35,216 nt of DNA from Akkermansiaceae bacterium (lineage in GTDB: Bacteria > Verrucomicrobiota > Verrucomicrobiia > Verrucomicrobiales > Akkermansiaceae), in assembly GCA_023253625.1 (NCBI GenBank), contig JALRFY010000197.1, forward strand, positions 1-35,216. Reading direction: 5' to 3'. Within the stretch, counting starts at the first letter, position 1; every line of letters begins with the position of its first letter. The notes below the pieces were generated by a model. That model searched no databases and was not told the DNA's origin. It saw only the letters and a program-made list of their open reading frames with translations. Below are positions 548 through 32,869 of the stretch, one piece after another. Both the position numbers and the translations under genes were made by a program.

Positions 548-706
548 GAAAAAGAAATGGAACCGCAGATGGACGTTAATGGACACAGATTATCAAAGAG
601 TTGGATCGATTCCACAACTCACCTTTTGGATGCGTCGTGGATTTACCACAAGCCTCTGAGAATTAACGTTTATCTGCGTTCATCTGCGGTTCATTTTTCC
701 ATTTAG
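548..706 (+). repeat. Palindromic dispersed repeat, family A, copy 1 (159 bp)
   Basis: This segment aligns end to end with the reverse complement of 31347-31505, also 159 bp. Both have imperfect inverted ends: left arm with ACCGCAGATGGAC (562-574), right arm with ATCTGCGTTCATCTGCGGTT (672-691). Shared interior blocks include TCACCTTTTG and a CCTCTGA block just before the right arm, and both copies end in CATTTAG. No transposase is encoded, so it looks like a MITE- or REP-like non-autonomous element. The motif resembles short ATCTGCGTTCATCTGCGG repeats I recall from environmental bacterial genomes; that is recollection, not a search. Confidence 0.75.
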
Positions 707-31310: not shown

Positions 31311-31346
31311 ATGGGATTGGCGATGTAAAACCGGCATTGGTTTAAC

Positions 31347-31505
31347 CTAAATGGGAAAATGAACCCCAGATGAACACAGATGAACGTTGATTTTCAGAGG
31401 TTTGCAACAAATTCAAAGAAGCCGCAAAAGGTGAAGCGTTTTATTGATATAACTGATTCAATATCTGCCTTCAGGAAGGTCCGTCTGCGGTTTTATTTCA
31501 TTTTC
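31347..31505 (-). repeat. Palindromic dispersed repeat, family A, copy 2 (159 bp)
   Basis: The inverted copy of 548-706 with the same length. On the plus strand it begins CTAAATGGGAAAATGAACC, contains AGATGAACACAGATGAACG, then CAAAAGGTGA, and ends CCGTCTGCGGTTTTATTTCA then TTTTC. It sits between two same-strand Gfo/Idh-type genes, ending 5 bp from the stop codon of the upstream gene (31511). It could therefore provide a transcript-end hairpin or separate the two cistrons; that role is inferred from position only. Confidence 0.75.
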
Positions 31506-31510
31506 AAGAT

Positions 31511-32869
31511 CTAACGGCTCATGCGGTAGGCGTCCATGATGGTGCGGTATTTGGCGAGCGTGTTGGGCACTTCCCATGAGGGCATTTCGCCTTTTTTCAG
31601 ATAGCCGAGGAAATCCGTCGCCACTTGTGAGAAGTGTGCTTCGTGGCCGAGGCGGTAGGAATCCGGGAAATTGACCACCCAACCGAAGTCCGTCCTGGCC
31701 ACTTCCACGCCGGGCCAGGTGGCGACGGCTTTCTTGACGGCGGCGGCGAGGGCTTGTTCAAGGCTGGCGGGATCCACGCCTTCCCGGGGTTCGAGATAGA
31801 GCATCGGCTTGTAGCCCTGCTCCTTGCCCTGGCGGATGATGGCGGCAACCTGGGTGCCGCGCATCAGCGAGTAGTGGGTGTCGCCGCCGCCGGCGGGTGC
31901 CTCGTAATCCCAGATGACCGAGATCTTGGCGTGGATGCCGTGAAGCTTGAACACGAACTCGCCATTGCTGGCGACCTCCAGGTTGCCGTCGGCATTGAGA
32001 TACGGCTTCAGGTAGTCCGGGATTACCTCGACCTTGGTCGAGCGCGTGAACTGGGCGGGGGTGAGGGTGGTGTTCCAAGTCCTGGCGGAGAGCACCTTGG
32101 CGTCGTTCAAACCGAGGATTTTTTCTGGAAACACTTCCCACTGGACAAGATCGACGAGGTGGGTGGTGACATCGACGATGCCTTCGCCCTGTTGCGCGGT
32201 GTCATAGAACCATGCCGGCCGCTGCAACGGCGCGCCAGCCACGGTCTTGTAGAAATGGTGGACGCTTTCCTTGGTGACCGACGGATCATCCGGAGTGCCG
32301 GGATCGATTTGGCCGAAGAAATCCGTCTGCTGGGCGAAGAATTTCTGCAGGCGCGTGGTGATCTCATGCCGCTCGGTCATGATGTCGGTGAGCATGAGTT
32401 TTTTTTCTGCGGCGATGGCATAGGCCTCTTGCAACATCTTGAAATCCTCGGGCGTGCTGGCCATCGGCTTGTCGGATAGCACGTGCAGGCCGGCCTTGAC
32501 GGATTCGAGGATGTAGCGGGTCTTGGCGCGATTGTTGCCGGCGAGTACGACGATGTTGCCGGGTTTTTCGGCGAGCATGCGTTCGAGGAAATCGCGGCCG
32601 GCGTGGACCTTGGATTCCCACGAGGTCGGGTTGTCCTTGCGGGAGTTGAAGCTGTCGATCCGCTGCATGTGCAGCTGGAGGTCCGGACCTTCGGGCGCAT
32701 AGACATGGACCACGGGAGACACGCCCGGCAGCATGCTCTTCTGCACCAGCGCGGCGTGGAAATGGCCGGGATCGAGCGTGATCAGGCGGAAGGCGGGTGC
32801 CTCGGCATGGATGATGGCGGTGGCCATGCAGGCGGCGATGACGGAATGGTGCAAGAATTTGGAGCTCAT
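31511..32869 (-). CDS. Secreted Gfo/Idh-type putative oxidoreductase
   Basis: A 452-residue protein with a Sec-type signal peptide (HHSVIAACMATAIIHAEA). The fold follows Gfo/Idh logic: RLITLDPGHFHAALVQ near the N-terminus instead of the usual GxGxxG, then NIVVLAGNNRAKTRYILESVKAGLHVLSDKPMASTPEDF, with DKP in place of EKP, and GEGIVDVTTHLVDLVQWEVFP in the C-terminal domain. The altered nucleotide-binding start fits the putative oxidoreductase group with its own C-terminal domain, in which NAD use is unproven. The stop is followed 5 bp later by the family A repeat, and the upstream DUF6807 gene ends 8 bp before its ATG, so these two are surely one transcript. Confidence 0.85.
   Translation of the reverse strand: MSSKFLHHSVIAACMATAIIHAEAPAFRLITLDPGHFHAALVQKSMLPGVSPVVHVYAPEGPDLQLHMQRIDSFNSRKDNPTSWESKVHAGRDFLERMLAEKPGNIVVLAGNNRAKTRYILESVKAGLHVLSDKPMASTPEDFKMLQEAYAIAAEKKLMLTDIMTERHEITTRLQKFFAQQTDFFGQIDPGTPDDPSVTKESVHHFYKTVAGAPLQRPAWFYDTAQQGEGIVDVTTHLVDLVQWEVFPEKILGLNDAKVLSARTWNTTLTPAQFTRSTKVEVIPDYLKPYLNADGNLEVASNGEFVFKLHGIHAKISVIWDYEAPAGGGDTHYSLMRGTQVAAIIRQGKEQGYKPMLYLEPREGVDPASLEQALAAAVKKAVATWPGVEVARTDFGWVVNFPDSYRLGHEAHFSQVATDFLGYLKKGEMPSWEVPNTLAKYRTIMDAYRMSR

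Follow-up and report, generated by a model that had tools for sequence, protein, structure and literature searches.

Short palindromic elements of an Akkermansiaceae genome and their probable relation to palindromic elements enclosing GxxExxY genes

Two short palindromic sequences lie in opposite orientation in the window analysed here, a stretch of 35,216 nucleotides of an Akkermansiaceae genome (assembly GCA_023253625.1, contig JALRFY010000197.1), which raises the question whether they are copies of a mobile element and, if so, what might have moved them. The sequence-only reading had described 548-706 and 31347-31505, the latter taken in reverse complement, as equal in length, with matching ends, arms and interior blocks around a diverged middle, and as an old, non-autonomous mobile or structural repeat. 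Here we determine the extent of the two elements, their relatives in this and other genomes, and the genes found between similar arms elsewhere.

The window copies and their family

The claimed similarity held. A blastn comparison within the window aligned 548-706 end to end with 31505-31347 on the minus strand over 160 columns (73.75% identity, E 4e-22); without gaps the two are 71.7% identical over 159 columns, and their local alignment score of 108 compares with a maximum of 23 in 300 shuffles. Agreement is best at the ends and in the arms and poorest near positions 80-100. Similarity thus goes beyond the short core ATCTGCGTTCATCTGCGG, and the possible refutation that only this core is shared failed. 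The coordinates had to be corrected, as a 20-nt tip, CCTAAATGGRAAAATGAACC, lengthens both elements beyond 548-706 and 31347-31505. Based on the match of this tip and on the offsets of the target duplications, the exact elements are 544-707 on the plus strand (copy a) and 31346-31509 on the minus strand (copy b), both 164 bp, with the ends set 17 nt ahead of AACC and 16 nt past GGTT. The extent of copy a is further supported by homology to other copies and by its end-to-end fold, that of copy b by its homology to copy a.

Copy a has a left arm, AACCGCAGATGGACGTTAATGGACACAGAT, arranged in 10-bp steps at 561-590 and an inverted right arm at 662-691 (AACCGCAGATGAACGCAGATAAACGTTAAT on the minus strand), both evident in the sequence and common to the genome copies. 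The sequence equivalents in copy b, on the minus strand, are 31362-31391 for the right arm and 31463-31492 for the left arm, the latter decayed (AACCGCAGACGGACCTTCCTGAAGGCAGAT on the minus strand). More generally, family-A elements, as we call this family, consist of two inverted arms, tips of about 16 nt and an exchangeable centre; the arms are inverted arrays of about three units of about 7 bp (CGCAGAT-type), spaced 8-11 bp apart, whose first bases are AACCRC. Being 164 bp long, with inverted arms and tips and without a transposase gene, the window copies are MITE-like. Copy a folds into a single end-to-end hairpin (-59.4 kcal/mol, z -6.45), whereas this fold is lost in copy b (z -1.31).

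Flanking target duplications, a check proposed together with the original description, were found and are 5 bp long. Copy a is bordered by ATAAT at 539-543 and by its exact repeat at 708-712, at an offset common to other copies; at the same offsets, copy b is bordered by TTTAA at 31341-31345 and TCTAA at 31510-31514, which agree in 4 of 5 bases, and the latter overlaps the stop codon of the gene at 31511-32869 on the minus strand. Copy b had been said to separate two metabolic genes, and this held, both neighbours being Gfo/Idh/MocA-type oxidoreductase genes. A toxin-antitoxin promoter claimed beside copy a remains unconfirmed, as the adjoining open reading frames (747-1004 and 1001-1444) have no Pfam match at 1e-3.

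The genome to which the window belongs (3.44 Mb in 291 contigs, 97% complete) contains about 12-18 copies of the family, a number drawn from pattern and similarity searches and possibly incomplete, so that the absence of further copies, which would have counted against a mobile repeat, can be dismissed. Near-identical copies are present on contigs C279 (96%), C221 (95%) and C222 (98%, truncated by the contig end), diverged copies on C73, C257, C282, C145, C148, C156 and C76, and single arms elsewhere. The distance from AACC to GGTT is 130-131 bp in eight copies. In its centre, copy a resembles copy b and the C257 and C73 copies, but not those on C148 and C156. Four copies are 95-98% alike while their flanks are unrelated; the description of the family as old therefore holds only in part.

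Exact 5-bp direct repeats border copy a (ATAAT) and the copies on C279 (CTTAC), C221 (CCCGA) and C156 (ATGAA), and the C257 copy has a TTGATA repeat shifted by one base. Among 300 trials with mispaired flanks, none gave four exact duplications at one offset pair (the maximum was three, seen once). The C156 copy is inserted where a gene ending in CCATGA would overlap a gene beginning with ATGAAGG, and its ATGAA duplication provides both genes with a stop or start codon of their own. When the C156 flanks were joined through a single ATGAA and searched against the genus, the matches ran continuously across the join, and 29 same-genus loci were found that carry this junction without an insert, most of them with one ATGAA or TGAA. 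This is direct evidence for insertion with a 5-bp duplication. Copies with unrelated flanks, 5-bp duplications at a fixed offset and un-inserted junctions together show that the family consists of mobile elements, in support of the original interpretation; they persist mainly in intergenic gaps.

The 20-nt tip is confined to the five closest gene-less copies, and no longer element with the same tips was found in this fragmented, 97%-complete genome. Plasmid and phage records contained no match to the family-A element. Several pairs of family-A type arms, 80-110 bp apart, are present on three IMG/VR contigs classed as viral (L218, L219, L223), and two of the enclosed spans, when translated, contained no GxxExxY. 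Other palindromes were noted close to family-A copies or at their sites. A different element with CACGAAA-type arms (L008, about 1340-1490) directly adjoins the C221 copy, and at the junction orthologous to that of C156 another genome (L256, G525) carries an independent short palindrome, AACCACAATCC...GGATTGCATGGATTTCACAG..., ending in CCGTGGTT, which suggests a hot spot.

GxxExxY genes between inverted arms

In two genomes of the same family (L077, L084), a GxxExxY reading frame lies between family-A arms that are separated by 448 and 469 bp, an association that the sequence-only reading did not reach. Each of the six GxxExxY genes or remnants found in the window's own genome is bracketed by inverted AACCRC arms with steps of about 10 bp (five recognised by alignment, L049 by eye). 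One of these elements (L047) has the CGCAGAT-type units of the window copies, and another (L050) is a 165-bp element that retains just the C-terminus of GxxExxY.

This architecture extends far beyond the genome studied. Almost all of 36 GxxExxY loci of the window's phylum have inverted arms, those of L108 being the same as those of L198. Across bacteria and archaea, inverted arms (score of at least 28) were detected at 61 of 78 sampled GxxExxY loci, compared with 2 of 430 position-shifted controls, and the arm-bearing loci include cyanobacteria, Bacteroidota, Acidobacteria, Chloroflexota and one Methanosarcinales archaeon. The 78 usable loci come from the 80 best matches among 84,980 species representatives and thus represent close relatives of the query rather than the family as a whole. 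GxxExxY itself is present in 229 of 388 sampled genomes of the window's phylum, in many other phyla and in 8 plasmid records, but in no phage record.

The arms of the GxxExxY elements usually comprise three 7-bp units (CACAGAG, CACGAAG, CGCAAAG, CGCAGAT and others) with a spacing of mostly 7-11 bp. The two arms of one element mismatch at 6.9% of positions in the units and at 31% in the spacers, a contrast that speaks for recognition of the units by a protein and not for pairing in RNA. In addition, arm similarity tracks GxxExxY protein similarity (Mantel rho 0.28, 0 of 500 permutations, 88 loci; 0.25 on distant pairs). Both the association of gene and arms and this covariation are shown by the data, the latter by a statistic that ignores host relatedness.

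The GxxExxY protein matches PF13366 (PD-(D/E)XK) and TIGR04256, and three residues of catalytic type, E22, D61 and K73, are invariant in 20 proteins. Its predicted model (pLDDT 97) has as best PDB match SSO0001 (4ic1), which we take to be a Cas4 protein, at a moderate level of similarity (TM about 0.5, E 1e-3); PADLOC Cas4 profiles gave weak matches and a search of the PDB by sequence gave none. GxxExxY is thus predicted to be a minimal, Cas4-like PD-(D/E)XK nuclease of about 116 amino acids, with its cutting activity being inferred. In the open-access literature GxxExxY is scarcely named, in one paper just in passing, PF13366 is likewise rare, and the arm sequences we searched for are absent from any relevant paper. 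The GxxExxY-type palindromic elements thus form a widespread and apparently undescribed class, a statement that is provisional because subscription papers were outside our search.

A putative mobiliser and its rivals

The reading we favour, by a modest margin, is that the window copies are non-autonomous members of a palindromic class whose gene-bearing members carry GxxExxY, and that they were probably moved by GxxExxY in trans. According to this model, the GxxExxY protein would bind the units in the arms of its own element, which sit roughly one helical turn apart, and would make the cuts that move the element. Family A inserts through a staggered cut of 5 bp with duplication of the target, and copies like those in the window, which lack the gene but have matching arms, would be moved by GxxExxY in trans. 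Arm binding, cleavage, mobilisation in trans and descent from gene-bearing elements are inferences, and a role of GxxExxY as the mobilising nuclease has not been shown. Gene-less derivatives do arise, as seen from L050, which keeps only the end of GxxExxY, and from the internally deleted element L307 described below. A bolder reading is that a single GxxExxY nuclease reads the arm code and moves both its own element and large families of gene-less palindromes, without any known transposase, in a new class of mobile elements across bacteria and archaea with parallel S23p or Mrr classes; on present evidence we find this slightly harder to accept than to doubt.

Several observations weigh against the GxxExxY model. 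No enrichment of target duplications was found at any offset around the GxxExxY-bearing elements as a set. The window copies also differ in their tips (CCTAAATGG...) from both gene-bearing elements and the gene-less copies of other genomes, whose tips are GAAGAATTT-like. An autonomous relative with the same ends remains possible, as three elements have family-A arm units around GxxExxY (L047, L077, L084), although the exact window tip is confined to gene-less copies. In their centres, the window copies have neither a GxxExxY gene or remnant nor any similarity to one, and we therefore file these copies only as non-autonomous relatives. The covariation of arms and protein is uncorrected for host relatedness. 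Finally, four-helix-bundle and Mrr genes also sit between such arms, so that enclosure alone does not mark a gene as the mobiliser.

The main rival, which remains possible, is a conventional MITE, in which an ordinary DDE transposase acts on the tips in trans, with GxxExxY, four-helix-bundle and Mrr genes carried along as passengers between the inverted repeats in the manner of mobile insertion cassettes. A target duplication with a fixed length of 5 bp is typical of DDE transposition, and that of family A fits; the finding of several unrelated genes between arms and the restriction of demonstrated duplications to gene-less copies also speak for this explanation. Against it, the 20-nt tip is found only on gene-less copies in a genome that is 97% complete, and the unit code corresponds to the protein family inside and, across phyla, varies together with the GxxExxY sequence, which would not be predicted for passengers.

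An element acting at the RNA level is unlikely. Here, the arms would form a transcript stem, cut by RNase III as in intervening sequences and kept for an effect on operon mRNA, with DNA mobility being incidental. In favour of this explanation, copy a folds end to end, elements are located between operon genes, and S23p genes, which have been described in rRNA intervening sequences bounded by terminal inverted repeats (PMC4990558), occupy elements of the same architecture. However, the fold is lost in copy b, the arms are kept as units and not as continuous pairing (the 31% spacer mismatch), insertion duplicates a DNA target, and an Rfam search of the window gave no match. An rRNA-type intervening sequence in particular is not supported, since the elements lie between protein genes and the window lacks an Rfam match.

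Movement by a Y1 (RAYT or TIRYT) transposase is very unlikely: Y1-moved intergenic palindromes are known, some between long terminal inverted repeats (PMC3733652), and Y1_Tnp matches 10 loci of the genome. However, the 1.5 kb around each of these loci is free of family-A arms, and family A has a 5-bp target duplication, while HUH/Y1 transposition makes none. The suggested link to a REP-associated transposase was thus not found, and a REP/RAYT identity was rejected for want of a Y1 gene next to family-A repeats. One Y1 transposase gene of this genome (L035, on C112) has the REP-like inverted repeat CCCAGGGCGTTGCCCTGGG on both sides and is a normal RAYT unit with no relation to family A.

Known systems, other cargo and shared insertion sites

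Family A resembles MITEs and ERIC-like intergenic repeat units (127 bp and related), which have been compared with MITEs in the literature (PMC2759123), in being short, palindromic, intergenic, gene-less and dispersed. It differs in that its arms are arrays of units of about 7 bp, in that the architecture also encloses GxxExxY, and in that a 5-bp duplication and an un-inserted site are shown. With REPs and their RAYT or TIRYT genes, the latter of which lie between terminal inverted repeats (PMC3733652), it shares the intergenic palindromes, but no Y1 gene is found near its arms, a target duplication is present and the enclosed gene encodes a PD-(D/E)XK nuclease. The intervening sequences of 23S rRNA, in which a small S23p open reading frame lies between terminal inverted repeats and which are viewed as selfish (PMC4990558), are comparable because genes of the S23p family are also found inside elements with this architecture; in contrast to these, the present elements lie between protein genes, the window copies have no such reading frame, and the unit codes differ. 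In mobile insertion cassettes, as in the gene-bearing elements, a gene is flanked by terminal inverted repeats and a transposase is lacking, but no parental insertion sequence with family-A ends was found in the window's own genome and the gene family is matched to the arm code.

The location of GxxExxY genes nearly always inside palindromic arms gives these genes a testable role. Their association with the arms accounts for one common kind of intergenic repeat, and it suggests that DNA may be moved by a Cas4-like nuclease instead of a known transposase. That S23p genes are enclosed in the same way is relevant to the origin of rRNA intervening sequences. In a separate survey of the phylum (L333-L362), inverted arms with a unit code of their own were found at 22 of 30 four-helix-bundle (S23p/TIGR02436) genes compared with 5 of 179 controls; these arms have 8-10-bp units with a TAGTGGC-, AAGCTTT- or TCAGCGA-like code. 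A four-helix-bundle gene between inverted arms was also noted in the window's own genome (L133, on C66). Furthermore, in a same-genus genome a 1-kb element at glnS (L315:156-1037) has family-A arms around a gene for an Mrr-type restriction endonuclease (Mrr_N plus Mrr_cat), whose start codon lies inside the arm.

Different elements occupy the same site in close relatives. The pheS-pheT junction is empty in two same-genus genomes (L308, L311) and holds GxxExxY elements in the window's own genome and in L296, L297, L298 and L300. Four-helix-bundle elements with different arms, called by eye from the translation, are found there in L295, L299 and L302, and an internally deleted one in L307. Gene-less elements are present at this junction as well, of the family-A type in L306 and, judged by its flank, in L082, and of a CGCAGAG type in L305. 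Three GxxExxY elements of the window's own genome (L045, L047 and L048, on C194, C187 and C112) adjoin pheS/pheT, hisS/aspS and glnS, neighbours recognised by eye from their translations; a preference for insertion next to aminoacyl-tRNA synthetase genes is a possible explanation.
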